A DNA stretch of 64,000 bases from NCBI GenBank assembly GCA_002457735.1, contig NTKO01000002.1, positions 35,433 through 99,432 on the forward strand, read 5' to 3'. Positions 1 through 16,140 of the stretch are shown in pieces. A model generated the notes under the pieces. It searched no databases and had not been told where the DNA came from. It was given only the letters and a program-made list of their open reading frames with translations. Source of the stretch: Bacteroidetes bacterium MED-G13 (GTDB taxonomy: Bacteria; Bacteroidota; Bacteroidia; Flavobacteriales; Flavobacteriaceae). Both the position numbers and the translations under genes were made by a program. How positions within the stretch are numbered: the first letter of the stretch is position 1; each line of letters opens with the position of its first letter.

Positions 1-1483
1 TTATAACCGAAACAATATTTTCTCTCGTTGTTAAACTGGATTCATCCCTATCTGGATTTGAAGAACCATAATCATCTCTAAACAACTTAATTGACTCATA
101 TCTAATACCAGGAGATACAGTTAGTCCATTTATTTTATACTTGTACATTATGTATGATGCAATCGATTTTGCAGAACTAATCCTATTGCCCTGTGCTCCT
201 AATTCACCTAAGGTTTCTAAATACATTTGTTCACCATTAATTCCATATATGTCTTCCCACTGAAATCTATCTTCTTCATCGTAATGAAATCTTAGTCCAA
301 TTTCCAAATCATTAAATCCTCCATTATTAGGGTACCAGTGGTAATCAAATTTTGTTTGAAATCCTTTTGAAATATATTTTCTATTATTTGCTTTTACTTT
401 TAATGAACTGTTGTAATCTAAATATCCATTGATTATTGAAAAATGATTTGGATATTGCTCTGGATTTGAAATAACTTTTGAAATTTTTTGTGAATTATTT
501 TCAAAAACAACATCATCTAATTTATACCAATTTCTTTTGAATTTGTTAAAATAGAGATTTGAAGTAAGTTTTAGCTTATCATTAAATAAAAATTCGTGAG
601 TTAGCATATACTGAAGATGCTCAGCATCCATTTTATCATTTTGTGATGCCGGATAGCGTAAAAAAGGATCATTATTAAAATCTAAATCTGTTAAACCAAG
701 ATAAGTCTCATTAGAAATTTCATCATAATGATGAAATTTTAATTCTAAAGACTGAATAGTTTTTTTGTCTTTAACGAATTTATATTTAATTTTTGAAGTT
801 ATTTCACTAATATCAAATCCTGAATTAAAATTATTGACAAGCGACTTAAAGCCATCTGAATTATAATTTAAATACTCAAACACGTAACCAAAGTTTTTTT
901 TAGTATTTCCAAAAAGTGCATATGTTTTAGCAGAATTAAAATTACCAATATTTGTCTCCAATCTTACTTTTGATCTGTCTGGGATTTCTGTAGAAATAAA
1001 ATTGATTGCGCCACCTGTAGTATAAGGGCCATATTGTATTTGACTACTCCCTTTTAGAACCTCAACAGCCTGCATACGAGCAACGGAAGGAAAATAATAA
1101 GCAGAGGAAGCACTGTATGGTGCGGGTGCTATTGGAATACCATCTTCCATTATTACAATTTTTGAACTTCTTTCGGCTGAGGTACCTCGGATACTTATAT
1201 TTGGTCGTAATCCAAAACCATCTTCTTCATAAAGATTTATTCCTGGAATCCTTTTTAAAGATCTATTTACATCGGTATTAATATAATCTGTAAGCTCTTC
1301 AAATGATAAGTAATATGCAGCTCCAGTTCTGTTGTTAGCCATGAATTTACTACCAAGAATTCTGTTTGGTTTTATCAAAATTTCATCAATTGGTACAGTA
1401 TCAATTTTATTTACATAAATTTCATTACTATAAAGGCTAGTTACAACTAATAATTTGAAAAGAATAAAAATAAATGTCCTCAT
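1..1483 (-). CDS. FecA-like TonB-dependent outer-membrane receptor (C-terminal part beyond window)
   Basis: The minus-strand frame is open from ATG at 1483 to the left edge (about 494 codons), so the end of the beta-barrel is missing. It starts with a hydrophobic signal peptide (MRTFIFILFKLLVV). A TonB plug domain follows at about residues 40-170: NRSLKRIPGINLYEEDG, SIRGTSAERSSKI, VEVLKGSSQIQYGP and TGGAINF are typical plug motifs. The rest reads as alternating barrel strands. The plug resembles ferric-citrate/siderophore receptors of the FecA group. There is no N-terminal carboxypeptidase-regulatory domain as in SusC proteins. It is divergent from the heme operon, and a 19-bp palindrome lies just upstream that is also found in front of the iron ABC importer. 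Import of a ferric chelate is therefore a reasonable inference; the exact ligand cannot be read from sequence. Confidence 0.9.
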   Translation of the reverse strand, partial: MRTFIFILFKLLVVTSLYSNEIYVNKIDTVPIDEILIKPNRILGSKFMANNRTGAAYYLSFEELTDYINTDVNRSLKRIPGINLYEEDGFGLRPNISIRGTSAERSSKIVIMEDGIPIAPAPYSASSAYYFPSVARMQAVEVLKGSSQIQYGPYTTGGAINFISTEIPDRSKVRLETNIGNFNSAKTYALFGNTKKNFGYVFEYLNYNSDGFKSLVNNFNSGFDISEITSKIKYKFVKDKKTIQSLELKFHHYDEISNETYLGLTDLDFNNDPFLRYPASQNDKMDAEHLQYMLTHEFLFNDKLKLTSNLYFNKFKRNWYKLDDVVFENNSQKISKVISNPEQYPNHFSIINGYLDYNSSLKVKANNRKYISKGFQTKFDYHWYPNNGGFNDLEIGLRFHYDEEDRFQWEDIYGINGEQMYLETLGELGAQGNRISSAKSIASYIMYKYKINGLTVSPGIRYESIKLFRDDYGSSNPDRDESSLTTRENIVSVI

Positions 1484-1529: not shown

Positions 1530-1537
1530 CAAATATA
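1530..1537 (-). promoter_or_regulatory. Putative -7 promoter element of the TonB receptor gene
   Basis: The minus strand reads TATATTTG, matching the Bacteroidota -7 consensus TAnnTTTG, about 46 nt upstream of the receptor ATG. No TTG lies at the expected -33 distance; that position is occupied by the palindrome at 1545-1563. In such AT-rich DNA this motif alone is weak evidence. Confidence 0.4.
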
Positions 1538-1544
1538 AATATTG

Positions 1545-1563
1545 ATTTAGATTTAATCTAAAT
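1545..1563. promoter_or_regulatory. 19-bp perfect palindrome, putative iron-regulator operator (copy 1)
   Basis: The sequence ATTTAGATTTAATCTAAAT is a perfect inverted repeat with 9-bp arms around one central base. It sits where the -33 region of the receptor promoter should be, the usual place for a repressor site. The same ATTTAGA-N5-TCTAAAT pattern occurs at 15103-15121, directly before the ferric-iron ABC importer. The 19-bp size with a central base resembles DtxR/IdeR or Fur-type boxes. Which regulator binds is inference. Confidence 0.6.
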
Positions 1564-10234: not shown

Positions 10235-11567
10235 AAGCTTTCCTAAAAAAGTAGATAATCTTATAATTGGTGCTGGTATAACCGGTTTGTCACTTGCTCA
10301 TTTTTTAAAAAAATTTAATCAAGATTTTATTATACTTGAGTCTTCTAAAAGAATTGGAGGAAATATTAATACAGTTTCAAAAAAGGGCTTTACTCTTGAA
10401 AACGGACCTAACACACTGCTTTTAGACAATAAGTCTATTCAGGCTTTAATTGAAGATTTTAATATTTCAAAAAATATCATTTTCCCAAATGAAAAGGCCA
10501 AAAATAGATTTTTAATCAAAAACCACATACTAACACCCATTCCTAAAAATCTTACTGATTTCTTGAAGTCAAACATATTGAGCTTCTCAGCAAAAATCAG
10601 AATCTTTTTTGAGCCATTTATAAAAAAACACAAAAAAGATACAAGTGTATTTAACTTTATTGTTAAAAGATTTGGTAAAGAATTTCACGACAACCTAATT
10701 GTGCCATTTTTAAATGGTATATATGCTGGGGATACCAAAAAAATGAGCATAAAATTTGTGCTTAGAAAAGTTTGGGAAATGGAACAAAAAAATGGAAGTA
10801 TTTTAAAATCTATTTTTTTAAATAAAACAAATTATCAACCAAAATCTTTTAGTTTTAAAAATGGACTTTCTGACCTTTTGGATTGTTTTAAAAAAGAACT
10901 TGATAAAAACATATTTTTAAAAATAAAAGTTACAAGTTTAACCAAGAAAAATAACCTTAATTTTGTTCAAATTAATGACGGCCAAGAAATTCAATGCAAG
11001 AATATAATTTCTACCATACCAGCACACTGTCTAAAAGATATTATTACAGATCAAAAAATAATTACTTGTCTAAAAAAAATTGAATATCATCCATTAAATG
11101 TTTTACATTTTAGCTTGGAAAGAAATAAAATTTATAGCCCCATTGATGGATTTGGAGTTTTAGCAAAACCAAGTGATAAACTATCATTTTTAGGAATTTT
11201 ATTTAACTCAAGAATATTTCCTCATCTTTCCCCTAAAAAATATGATCTAATTACTGTAATGGTAGGTGGGGCTAAACAAAAGAACATTCTTAAAAAACCA
11301 AAAAAAGAAATTGAGAAAAGAGTTATTTCGGATATCAAAAAAATTATAAATTTTGAAGGTAAAATTGTATTACTAAATCAATTTTCCTGGAAAAAAGGTA
11401 TACCGCAATATGATATGAATTTTTTAAATCTTTCTAAGTCAATAAAAAATTTTACACAAAAAAATCCTGGATTATTTATAATTGGTAATTTTCTAGAGGG
11501 TGTTTCTGTAAGTAATTGTATTAAAGCTGGACACAAAACTGCACAATTACTCTGTGAAAAAGTTTGA
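10227..11567 (+). CDS. hemY: Protoporphyrinogen oxidase, HemY type (FAD-dependent)
   Basis: This enzyme oxidises protoporphyrinogen IX to protoporphyrin IX (or coproporphyrinogen in the coproporphyrin branch). The Rossmann FAD motif IGAGITGLSLAHFL is at about residues 13-26, followed by SSKRIGGNINTVSK and GFTLENGPNTLL, the standard PPOX N-terminus. The C-terminal FAD loop reads FIIGNFLEGVSVSNCI. Its 446 residues fit the family. Known HemY enzymes use O2, which contrasts with the O2-independent HemN in the same operon. Some databases call this family hemG, although E. coli HemG is an unrelated flavodoxin-like protein. It is the last gene of the heme directon, and its 3' end overlaps the convergent fbpC by 21 nt. 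Confidence 0.93.
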   Translation: MPKSFPKKVDNLIIGAGITGLSLAHFLKKFNQDFIILESSKRIGGNINTVSKKGFTLENGPNTLLLDNKSIQALIEDFNISKNIIFPNEKAKNRFLIKNHILTPIPKNLTDFLKSNILSFSAKIRIFFEPFIKKHKKDTSVFNFIVKRFGKEFHDNLIVPFLNGIYAGDTKKMSIKFVLRKVWEMEQKNGSILKSIFLNKTNYQPKSFSFKNGLSDLLDCFKKELDKNIFLKIKVTSLTKKNNLNFVQINDGQEIQCKNIISTIPAHCLKDIITDQKIITCLKKIEYHPLNVLHFSLERNKIYSPIDGFGVLAKPSDKLSFLGILFNSRIFPHLSPKKYDLITVMVGGAKQKNILKKPKKEIEKRVISDIKKIINFEGKIVLLNQFSWKKGIPQYDMNFLNLSKSIKNFTQKNPGLFIIGNFLEGVSVSNCIKAGHKTAQLLCEKV

Positions 11568-12512
11568 GCAACCTTTATCAAAATAAATTAAATCTTCTTC
11601 TAAATATTCAAAGCAAACCTTAGAGTTTATTTTAATCGGTTCTTTTGAGAAAACTGACCAAATATTATTATTATATAAACCAATAATCTTATAGTCTTTT
11701 CCTTGAAAAAAACATTTCTTTGCATTCATTGACAATTTTGAATGTTTTACTATTTTTATATTCTCAGGTCTTATATAGAATGTTTTTTTACCGATGGATA
11801 ATTTATTTATATCACCTAAAATTTCAGCACAATAACAATTAGCAGGTTTACAATACATTGTAGTTGGGTTCGAAAATTGTTGTACTACTCCAGCCTTAAA
11901 TACTAAAATTTTATCAGAAATATTTAATGCATCATTAATATCATGGGTTACCAATATTGTAGTTGTTTTAGTTTTCTTTACAATATTGCAAATTTCATCT
12001 CTAACTTGATGCTTTATATTTGAATCCAAGTTACTAAAAGGCTCATCCAATAATAACAAGTCAGGTTCTCTAATAATCGATCTTGCAATACAAGCCCTTT
12101 GTTGTTCCCCACCTGAAATTTCGTGAGGATATCTGTTCAAAATTGATTTTAAATTTGTTAATGAAACGACTGAATCAAAATTAGAATTAAACTTTATATC
12201 TAAATTAAAGCAAATATTTTCTCTTATATTCAAATGTGGAAATAAGGCGTAATCTTGAAATACATAACTTATTTTCCTTTGCTGAGGAGGTATAAAGGTA
12301 TTATGGCTACTAATTATTTTACCATTTAAAATTATTTCACCACCATCAATTTTTTCTAGACCCGAAAGACATTTAAGGAAAGTTGATTTTCCAGCTCCAC
12401 TCTCACCTACAAATGACAACAATTCACCCTTTTGCAATTGAAAATTTAGTTTTTTTAAAACTGGTAGGTTATCAGCGTATGATTTTATTAAGTCTTTAAC
12501 TTCTAGAAACAT
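11547..12512 (-). CDS. fbpC: Ferric-iron ABC transporter, ATP-binding protein
   Basis: This 321-residue ATPase has Walker A GESGAGKST (about residue 36), a Q-loop in VFQDYALFP, signature ISGGEQQR, Walker B LLLDEPFSNLD and the switch histidine in LVTHD. A C-terminal TOBE-like part (about 235-321, YIRPENIKI) is typical of FbpC/PotA-type importers. It overlaps the permease gene upstream by 17 nt and is the last gene of fbpA-fbpB-fbpC. With the partner genes it should power periplasm-to-cytosol uptake of Fe3+. Its 3' end overlaps the convergent hemY by 21 nt, so the two transcripts are antisense there. Confidence 0.92.
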   Translation of the reverse strand: MFLEVKDLIKSYADNLPVLKKLNFQLQKGELLSFVGESGAGKSTFLKCLSGLEKIDGGEIILNGKIISSHNTFIPPQQRKISYVFQDYALFPHLNIRENICFNLDIKFNSNFDSVVSLTNLKSILNRYPHEISGGEQQRACIARSIIREPDLLLLDEPFSNLDSNIKHQVRDEICNIVKKTKTTTILVTHDINDALNISDKILVFKAGVVQQFSNPTTMYCKPANCYCAEILGDINKLSIGKKTFYIRPENIKIVKHSKLSMNAKKCFFQGKDYKIIGLYNNNIWSVFSKEPIKINSKVCFEYLEEDLIYFDKGCSNFFTE

Positions 12513-14064
12513 TTATCCTGCTTATAATATTTTTAAAAATAATTAATAGTATACTGCAAACAAATATAATTACTAAAGAATAAATTGAAGATAATGGAAG
12601 CATTTCTTCAATTGCGAACTCATATGTTTGAGTTGCAAGGGTATCAAAATTAAATGGCCTCAGTATTAAAATTATTGGCAACTCTTTCATTAAATCAATA
12701 AAAACCAAAATCAATGCAGAAACAAAAGATAATTTATTTACAGGTAAATATATTTTTTGAAAAATTTTAAATCTTTTTAATCCGAGTGATTCTGCAGTTA
12801 AGTCATACGTTTTAGGTAATTTTTCAAATCCAGATTTAATAGGAGATTTTCCAACAGCCATGAATCTAATTAAGTATGCGTAAATGAGAATAAAAAGATA
12901 TACATAAAAATTACCCAAAAGATTAATGGAATCAATATTTTTATCAATACTTGTGAAATATATAATTATTGCAAGAGCAATGACTGCACCAGGGATTGAG
13001 TAACCAAGTGATATAAATTGATTTATATAAAAATATATTTTTGAATTTGAAAATCTCTCATTAAACAAAAAATATACAGAAACAACCAGTATAATTATTG
13101 AAGATATTAATGAAATTGATACCGAATTAATTGTTAATTGAAGAAGGTTTGATATATCAATTTTATCAAAGTTGTCTATTACATTTGAAATATTAAATAA
13201 AACAGGAATGAAAAAAGAAAATATAATTGGTATGAGGCAAGCCAGGTAAATTAATAGTTTTTGATTAATAGTACTATTAATTAGTTCAATTGGATTAGAA
13301 TTTTTTAAGTAAGAAAATAGCTTTTTTTTATTTATTTTTTTTTCTATAAAAAATAAAAACGCTACAATAAATAAAAGAATTGAAGAAAGCTGTATAGCGG
13401 CACCAGTATCATTCATTGAATTCCATGTTCTAAAAATACCAATAGTATATGTATTTACTCCAAAATATTTTACTGCACCGTATTCATTTAACACCTCCAT
13501 AATAACTAAAAAAAGACCAGAAAAAATAGCTGGTTTTGAAAGTGGAATTATAATTTTAAAAAAGGACTTGTATACACTTAACCCTAAAATCTTGCCCATG
13601 TTAATAAATTTTGAACCCATCAAACTAAAAGATATTCTTGAAACAGCATATATGTATGGAAATAAGGAAAATGAAAGTATTATGCCTAAAATCTCTAGTT
13701 GTAAAAAATCGGCTTTAATTTTTAGTGGCCCTGTAAAACTCAATATCTCAGCATAAGTAAAAGCCATAATATAAGTTGGAATTGAAAGAGGTAAAAAAAG
13801 AAGTACATCAATAATACTTCGCCCATAAAATCTAAAATTACTGACATACCAAGCTGGAATTATCCCAAGAATAAGTGAAAATACTGAGGTTATGATAATT
13901 AACTTAAAAGTACTGGAGCTGTAATCTAATAAAAGGTTCTCAAACACATATACCAAAGATTCTGTCTCGGAAAAGAAAGAGGTAAAAACAAGGAATAATA
14001 TTGGAAAAAAAATTATTCCAAATATTAAAAAAGCAAATTTTTCGTTTTTTTTAAAAGTATTCAA
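12496..14064 (-). CDS. fbpB: Ferric-iron ABC transporter, fused permease
   Basis: The 522-residue protein has about twelve hydrophobic helices in two homologous halves, as in FbpB/SfuB permeases that carry both transmembrane domains on one chain. EAA-type loops that dock the ATPase are visible in each half (GKILGLSVYKSFFKIIIPLSKPAI at about 160, split as AESLGLKRFKIFQKIYLP near 425). The start is TTG at 14064; a stop lies three codons upstream, so no ATG start is available. It follows fbpA by 6 nt and overlaps fbpC by 17 nt. Confidence 0.92.
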   Translation of the reverse strand: MNTFKKNEKFAFLIFGIIFFPILFLVFTSFFSETESLVYVFENLLLDYSSSTFKLIIITSVFSLILGIIPAWYVSNFRFYGRSIIDVLLFLPLSIPTYIMAFTYAEILSFTGPLKIKADFLQLEILGIILSFSLFPYIYAVSRISFSLMGSKFINMGKILGLSVYKSFFKIIIPLSKPAIFSGLFLVIMEVLNEYGAVKYFGVNTYTIGIFRTWNSMNDTGAAIQLSSILLFIVAFLFFIEKKINKKKLFSYLKNSNPIELINSTINQKLLIYLACLIPIIFSFFIPVLFNISNVIDNFDKIDISNLLQLTINSVSISLISSIIILVVSVYFLFNERFSNSKIYFYINQFISLGYSIPGAVIALAIIIYFTSIDKNIDSINLLGNFYVYLFILIYAYLIRFMAVGKSPIKSGFEKLPKTYDLTAESLGLKRFKIFQKIYLPVNKLSFVSALILVFIDLMKELPIILILRPFNFDTLATQTYEFAIEEMLPLSSIYSLVIIFVCSILLIIFKNIISRINVSRS

Positions 14065-14070
14065 GTTGAT

Positions 14071-15093
14071 TTATTTCCATCCGGTTTTATCAAAAACCTT
14101 AATTGCATCATCTCTAAATGACCCAAGCAAATTTAAATCTAAATTATCAATTTTAAAATCCCCCCAGGATGAAACAATATCCGATGGATTAACAAGGGGA
14201 TTTGCAGGATACTCATAGCTATTATTTACATATATATTTTGTGCCTCCTCCCCGGTTAAATACTCTAATAATTTTATTGCATTTTCTTTATTAGGTGGAT
14301 TTTTTGTCATAGCATAGCCTGAAATGTTAATGTGCGTACCTCTATCTCCTTCAGCTTGATTAGGAAAAAATATTGAGACAGAATTTCCAGCATCAATTTC
14401 CGCTAGTTTTTCCGATGATAATAACAAACCAATGTAATAGGAATTTACTATTGCTAAGTCACCTTGACCTGCAGCAATTGCCTTTACCTGATCTCTGTCA
14501 TTTCCTTTGGGATTTCTTGCAAAATTATTAACTAAACCTTTAGACCATTTAGTAACATCATCTTTACCAAGATTTGCATACATAGCTGACATAAGAGCTT
14601 GATTATAGGCATTCGAAGATGACCTAACTAATATTCTACCCTTCCATTTTGGATTTGCTAAATCCTCATAAGTACTTAATTGATCCAATGAAACTCTATC
14701 TTTACTGTAAACTATAAGTCTTGCTCTGTAAGTAATTGGTATCCAGTACTTATGAGGATCCTTTAACTCACTTCTAACATTTGCATCAATTTTATCATTA
14801 ATAATTTTTTGAAATAACTCCATTTCAACTCCCTTTTGAAGTTTTCCTGCGTCAACAGTAACATAAAGATCAGCCGGGCTATTTAAACCTTCATTTTTTA
14901 ATCTTTCCAAAAGTTCATCATCTCCTGCTTTAACAATATTAACCTTAATTCCTGTTTTTTCTTCAAATTTTTTGTATAAGAGCTTGTCTACCTCATAATG
15001 TCTTTTACTATAAATGTTAATTTCATTTTTTTCATTTTTAGTACATGAGCCTAAAAAAATGGAAATTGAAATTAATATTAAATATCTTTTCAT
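14071..15093 (-). CDS. fbpA: Ferric-iron ABC transporter, substrate-binding lipoprotein
   Basis: ATG 15093 gives a lipoprotein signal MKRYLILISISIFLGSC with a lipobox cysteine, so the protein is probably anchored by lipid. An upstream in-frame TTG (15126) is rejected because it would place coding sequence over the 19-bp operator. The 340-residue protein has FbpA/FutA family marks: NIYSKRHYEVD near the N-terminus, the iron-ligand tyrosines in ITYRARL and NSYYIG, and RGTHINISG. Its role is to capture Fe3+ outside the inner membrane and deliver it to FbpB. It heads the fbpABC operon and is divergent from an AraC-type regulator. Confidence 0.93.
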   Translation of the reverse strand: MKRYLILISISIFLGSCTKNEKNEINIYSKRHYEVDKLLYKKFEEKTGIKVNIVKAGDDELLERLKNEGLNSPADLYVTVDAGKLQKGVEMELFQKIINDKIDANVRSELKDPHKYWIPITYRARLIVYSKDRVSLDQLSTYEDLANPKWKGRILVRSSSNAYNQALMSAMYANLGKDDVTKWSKGLVNNFARNPKGNDRDQVKAIAAGQGDLAIVNSYYIGLLLSSEKLAEIDAGNSVSIFFPNQAEGDRGTHINISGYAMTKNPPNKENAIKLLEYLTGEEAQNIYVNNSYEYPANPLVNPSDIVSSWGDFKIDNLDLNLLGSFRDDAIKVFDKTGWK

Positions 15094-15102
15094 TTTGTTG
15101 TT

Positions 15103-15121
15103 ATTTAGAGTTATTCTAAAT
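15103..15121. promoter_or_regulatory. 19-bp inverted repeat, putative iron-regulator operator (copy 2)
   Basis: ATTTAGAGTTATTCTAAAT has perfect 7-bp arms (ATTTAGA / TCTAAAT) around five bases. The arms and spacing are identical to the palindrome before the TonB receptor (1545-1563). It ends 10 nt from the fbpA ATG, so a bound protein would block transcription start or early elongation. A near -7 element (TATCTTG on the minus strand, about 15126-15132) lies just upstream. Two copies with the same arms, both before iron-uptake genes, make a shared operator likely. Confidence 0.6.
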
Positions 15122-15267
15122 TGCAAGATAGTTATTAAAATAAAAAAACCTCGTGAAGTGCTTGATTATTTTATCATTCATTTATTACAAACTATTAAAA
15201 TACTTCAAATGAAAAAGAAGAAATTGGTTTAATTATTGATAAATTTGCTTTAGTTAAATAATCTGCA

Positions 15268-16140
15268 ATGAATCTTGTTAGTAGCTGTCAATCTTTTGAA
15301 GTTGAAGTAGAAGAAAATTTTTTTGTTGTAAAAAATGAAAATCAAGAAAAAAATAATTTAAACTACAGAAAAACTATTGATAATAGTTTTATCCAATTCC
15401 ATTTTGCTTTGTCAGGCAACTCTGTTTTTAAATTCAGTGTTTTTTATAAAATGGAAGTTAAAAATGGGGATTATGTTGTTCTTTATAATCCAAACAAAAA
15501 TTTACCTGTTAATATTACTGTTAATCAAAACTCAACTCTATTTTCAATTTTTATTTCTATAAAAAAATTTCATAAGCTTTTTTCTGAAGATGCAGATAAT
15601 ATTCATTTTTTAAAAGATGAAAATATTTCCGAAAAGTATTATCACAAGAGTAATATTCCAAATTCAACCTTACTAATTTTAAATGAATTAAAACGATTTG
15701 ATAATAATAGCTCGACAAAAAAACTTTTTTTGAAAGCCAAGATATATGAATTATTTAGTTATATATTCAATAAAAACAGAGATCTTAATGTAGAGCAATG
15801 CCCCTATTTAAATAATGAAGAAAACTTTAAAAAAATCAAAAAAGCTAAAGAAATAGTTATCGAGAATATGACAAATCCGCCTACGTTAAAAGATTTATCT
15901 TTTGAAATTGATTTAAGTCTAAAAAAATTAAAAGAAGGATTTAAAAAAATATACGGTAAACCTGTTTACCAGTTTTTACTGGAACACAAAATGGAGTTAG
16001 CTAAAAAATTGCTTTCAGATAGCAAAAACAATGTTAATGAAGTAAGTTTGAAACTTGGATACAGTACTGCAAGTCATTTTATTGCAGCTTTTAAAAATAG
16101 ATTTGGAGTTACCCCAAAGATGTTTAAAAAAAATTATTGA
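15268..16140 (+). CDS. AraC-family transcriptional regulator
   Basis: The C-terminal 95 residues are a classical AraC/XylS double helix-turn-helix: PTLKDLSFEIDLSLKKLKEG is the first HTH, and VNEVSLKLGYSTASHFIAAF followed by KNRFGVTPKMFKK the second. The N-terminal 180 residues are a poorly conserved, probably cupin-like sensor region. The gene is divergent from the iron importer fbpABC across about 175 nt. AraC regulators of the PchR type next to iron genes usually respond to ferric chelates, so control of fbpABC or of the neighbouring receptor is a reasonable inference. It is followed after 5 nt by tRNA-Leu and then the carotenoid genes, which it could also influence. A possible -7 element TAAATTTG is at 15240-15247. 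Confidence 0.88.
   Translation: MNLVSSCQSFEVEVEENFFVVKNENQEKNNLNYRKTIDNSFIQFHFALSGNSVFKFSVFYKMEVKNGDYVVLYNPNKNLPVNITVNQNSTLFSIFISIKKFHKLFSEDADNIHFLKDENISEKYYHKSNIPNSTLLILNELKRFDNNSSTKKLFLKAKIYELFSYIFNKNRDLNVEQCPYLNNEENFKKIKKAKEIVIENMTNPPTLKDLSFEIDLSLKKLKEGFKKIYGKPVYQFLLEHKMELAKKLLSDSKNNVNEVSLKLGYSTASHFIAAFKNRFGVTPKMFKKNY

Follow-up and report, generated by a model that had tools for sequence, protein, structure and literature searches.

Predicted Fur operators before two iron-uptake gene sets of a marine flavobacterium

Two palindromes and the described iron operators

The classical enterobacterial Fur box (GATAATGATAATCATTATC) is a 19-bp palindrome for a Fur dimer, and operators of the DtxR/IdeR type (TTAGGTTAGCCTAACCTAA) are likewise 19-bp palindromes found in iron promoters. 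Within the Flavobacteriia, the Fur box of Riemerella anatipestifer reads ATTTAGAATTATTCTAAAT, and purified Fur shifts promoters carrying such boxes in EMSA (PMC5609570). The rhuB box of the same species (ATTTAGAATTATCCTAAAT) binds Fur in an assay requiring Fe2+ (PMC10986502), and mutation of the Fur box between rhuH and rhuR derepresses rhuH (PMC11967795). Our literature search for flavobacterial Fur boxes found only this Riemerella work, and no description of the motif in the present marine lineage was found in the literature searched.

In the window (the whole 64-kb stretch of DNA analysed here), two palindromes with full arms lie exactly where a first-pass annotation had placed them, one before a FecA-like TonB-dependent receptor and one before fbpA (Table 1). 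Of the 19 bases in each, 17-18 are those of the R. anatipestifer Fur box. The two systems have in common the 19-bp length, the arms, the symmetric T-N-A centre and a location at most about 100 bp from the start codon of a TonB receptor or iron gene; the distances measured in the window place both boxes well within 100-150 bp of an iron-uptake gene. The half-site here is ATTTAGA(A/T)T as against GATAATGAT in the enterobacterial box, and it also differs from the half-sites of the DtxR/IdeR type. Unlike in R. anatipestifer, the sites belong to another lineage and habitat and are known by sequence, and among their predicted targets are the FbpABC importer and, in related genomes, an operon with DUF4856 and imelysin genes. 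The motif, which the annotation had considered possibly unlisted, is already published and not new to science: it is the same as the Fur box described for R. anatipestifer (PMC5609570, PMC10986502). From these resemblances and the comparisons below, we consider both palindromes to be very probably Fur operators preceding two iron-uptake gene sets.

Table 1. Positions of the predicted operators, promoter elements and genes in the window
Feature	Coordinates	Strand	Remarks
TonB-dependent receptor (FecA-like), N-terminal part within window	1..1483	-	Pfam Plug 2.1e-14
-7 promoter element TATATTTG (TAnnTTTG) of receptor	1530..1537	-	7 bp downstream of box 1 in receptor direction; same register in 11/11 genomes
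Fur box 1 (predicted), ATTTAGATTTAATCTAAAT	1545..1563	.	61 bp to receptor ATG; divergent from hemA
fbpC-like ATPase	11547..12512	-	ORF and gene order; annotated by inspection
fbpB-like permease	12496..14064	-	ORF and gene order; annotated by inspection
fbpA, ferric-iron substrate-binding lipoprotein	14071..15093	-	ATG 15093-15091; SBP_bac_8/SBP_bac_6
Fur box 2 (predicted), ATTTAGAGTTATTCTAAAT	15103..15121	.	9 bp before fbpA ATG; ATTTAGAATAACTCTAAAT on fbpA coding strand; kept at all 34 fbpA loci that have upstream sequence
Putative -7-like element TATCTTG of fbpA	15124..15130	-	two bases before box 2
AraC-family regulator	15268..16140	+	HTH_18 2.9e-18; divergent from fbpA

The exact pattern ATTTAGA-N5-TCTAAAT occurs at these two sites and nowhere else, either in the window or in the whole source assembly (1,061,404 bases in 32 contigs, 82% complete), and it is absent from 100 dinucleotide shuffles of the window; Markov models of order 0-3 built from the window predict 0.005 occurrences for the window and 0.08-0.09 for the genome. 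A genome-wide scan for the 17-bp core TTTAGA-N5-TCTAAA, which had been proposed as a check, found the core before both iron gene sets, but its two occurrences against approximately 0.7-0.9 expected do not amount to an enrichment, and a reversed control pattern also occurs twice. With two mismatches allowed, the 23 matches observed against 20.6 expected correspond to background, and the eleven two-mismatch matches of the source genome that we inspected all lie within open frames. Of two one-mismatch matches, one is intragenic and the other is a conserved site before a cytochrome operon, described below. Given these core and control counts, counting is weak evidence and could not settle function alone, and it is position and conservation that carry the case.

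Conservation of the boxes before fbpA and beside hemA

The fbpA loci were chosen by an FbpA alignment search of named genomes, and their upstream DNA was read afterwards, so that the motif played no part in the choice. The search found 36 loci. Upstream sequence was available for 34, and the box is present in every one of these, with no mismatch in 16 and one mismatch in 18; when the upstream regions were dinucleotide-shuffled, a best match with no more than one mismatch arose in 0.2% of cases. These loci share ancestry and do not represent 34 independent events, and they fall into at least five arrangements. Those nearest to the window's have 7-12 bp between box and start codon, with a (TA)TCTTGCA-like block ahead of the box. 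The Marinoscillum group carries GTTTAGAAT(A/T)AATCTAAAT, another group carries ATTTATATTCAATCTAAAT, and in still other loci the box stands 54-113 bp upstream, apparently as one of a pair in some (L170, L173). The distance from box to start ranges over 7-113 bp in the other fbpA relatives. A TTG start of fbpA at 15126, listed mechanically, would overlap box 2.

The gap between the receptor and hemA was followed in the source genus, where 11 of 21 genomes have hemA. The strict core is kept in this gap in all 11 same-genus genomes with hemA at the locus, and in each of them a perfect TAnnTTTG, which we take to be the Bacteroidetes -7 element, begins exactly 26 bases from the start of the box and reads away from hemA. 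At fbpA, TAnnTTG stands in the same register in the 11 loci most like that of the window; as this is shorter than the TAnnTTTG consensus, its -7-like role is putative. Conservation at 34/34 and 11/11 loci, together with the fixed promoter register, thus shows function where the counts could not, and it backs the annotation's proposal that the TonB receptor and fbpABC share a repressor operator within an iron regulon.

The gene behind the position of box 1 is a DUF4856 lipoprotein in ten of the 11 genomes. At L119, a locus read over a longer stretch, the genes for an imelysin, an HTTM/VKGC protein and a TonB receptor come next. The window locus has no DUF4856, imelysin or HTTM gene, and its FecA-like receptor (approximately 730 aa as a whole gene) stands directly behind box 1; this receptor is 65% identical to one in genome G020 that has two boxes in front of it. 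Box 1 is retained while the gene behind it changes.

The spacer is not free in the homologous sites: position 9 is T in 45/45 and position 11 is A in 44/45, so that the element is a 9-1-9 rather than a 7-5-7 palindrome. The 45-site consensus is ATTTAGAWTNANTCTAAAT, i.e. ATTTAGA(A/T)T-N-A-N-TCTAAAT, with a nearly invariant T and A flanking the centre. It may serve as a Fur-box model for uncultured marine Flavobacteria with small genomes, which are represented mainly by single-cell genomes and MAGs; with it, their iron regulon could be predicted from sequence and iron-stress genes picked out in ocean metatranscriptomes.

The regulator reading the boxes

A clear match to a FUR-family protein was found in 14 of the 20 genus relatives, one per genome (with a marginal fragment in G004), and among PDB structures its nearest relatives are Fur proteins. 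At each of the nine loci read, fur is encoded between relA/spoT and purA. The search gave no match in the window's own 82%-complete assembly, from which purA, otherwise near-universal, is also missing; since purA neighbours fur in relatives, we read this as an assembly gap, and the relA/spoT-fur-purA locus is probably missing from the assembly and not from the organism, although the missing neighbour points to a gap and does not prove it. The genus Fur (L089:1941-2399 and orthologues) lacks, after its HDHLI motif, the CxxC structural zinc pair that E. coli Fur carries there.

The annotation had left the reader of the operator as a DtxR/Fur-like regulator. DtxR-family regulators also bind palindromes of about this length at iron promoters, and DtxR is encoded in 12 of the 23 more distant fbpA genomes, but a DtxR/IdeR/MntR-type reader is very unlikely: DtxR (PF01325) is absent from all 21 genomes of the source genus, whereas the same search is positive in 28 of 33 high-quality relatives outside it, no DtxR was seen in the other 11 of the 23 distant fbpA genomes, and the motif is the Fur box tested in R. 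anatipestifer. The Fur half of that proposal stands, through the match to the R. anatipestifer box, and the DtxR half does not. Another member of the Fur family, such as PerR or Zur, has an equally slight chance of being the reader; 7-1-7-type palindromes are shared across the family, but no second FUR-family protein was found in any genus genome searched, and the targets concern iron rather than peroxide or zinc. Since the genomes with a clear match encode one Fur-family protein each and DtxR is lacking, Fur is much the strongest candidate.

The divergent AraC-family regulator adjoins box 2, which it may share, and could be thought to read the boxes in the manner of PchR or YbtA near siderophore genes. 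This is extremely improbable, as its place is occupied by other genes in many relatives that retain the box, box 1 is 13.5 kb distant, and the palindromic symmetry of the box contrasts with the direct repeats that AraC regulators usually bind. Finally, chance palindromes in AT-rich DNA, a reading favoured only by the near-expected frequency of the core, are refuted by the cross-genome comparison: the box is kept at 34/34 and 11/11 orthologous promoters, and at the receptor/hemA gap its register with the promoter elements is fixed.

The analysis directly established the two sites, how they are conserved and where they stand at promoters, and also that the genus has a single Fur and lacks DtxR; that the Fur of this lineage binds the boxes, and the direction of control, we infer from the equivalent R. 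anatipestifer box. When cytoplasmic iron is sufficient, an Fe2+-loaded Fur dimer would occupy the 9-1-9 palindrome and block transcription. At the receptor promoter, with the box just upstream of the -7 element, the dimer would bar the polymerase; at the fbpA promoter, the box lies just downstream of the -7-like element and would cover the predicted transcription start. When iron is scarce, Fur would be released, allowing joint synthesis of the outer-membrane receptor with the FbpABC importer.

A third site and the neighbouring genes

The third site in the source genome is asymmetric, with one mismatch (ATTTAGAATGGATATAAAT, C1:98740-98758; G000, L064). Ten genomes of the genus retain it, in the gap separating a SPOR-domain gene from a multihaem cytochrome operon that probably encodes alternative complex III, and it lies upstream of the likely -7 element of this operon; these cases were found by the motif and are weaker evidence than the loci chosen by protein. 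The position would suit an activator, but that the same Fur also acts here is rather doubtful. If it did, iron-loaded Fur might activate a haem-rich respiratory complex at the same time as it represses uptake.

The cassette of DUF4856, imelysin and HTTM/vitamin-K-dependent-carboxylase-like genes behind the predicted Fur box in relatives (L119:701-4547) is a candidate iron-uptake set. On the other side of box 1, the 135 bp preceding hemA (1582-1716) are of equal length and align essentially without indels in 11 genomes, with the invariant islands TTATATTATTTAGAAT, CAGATTGA and AGCGTTACTTT. No RNA structure and no Rfam match were found in this block, and the islands are probably promoter elements of hemA. 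At the start of hemA itself (ATG at 1734; 1734-1780), the window has a one-base deletion near 1771-1777 with respect to the aligned relatives, so that the first codons run into a stop; this is either a sequencing error or a real frameshift.

In addition, the DNA between the box and fbpABC differs within the genus. Where other members carry the haem biosynthesis genes, G020 and G002 (loci L118 and L120) encode an HmuY-like haem-binding protein. A search of these two draft genomes found no hemA in either, and haem synthesis may possibly have been swapped for haem uptake in them.
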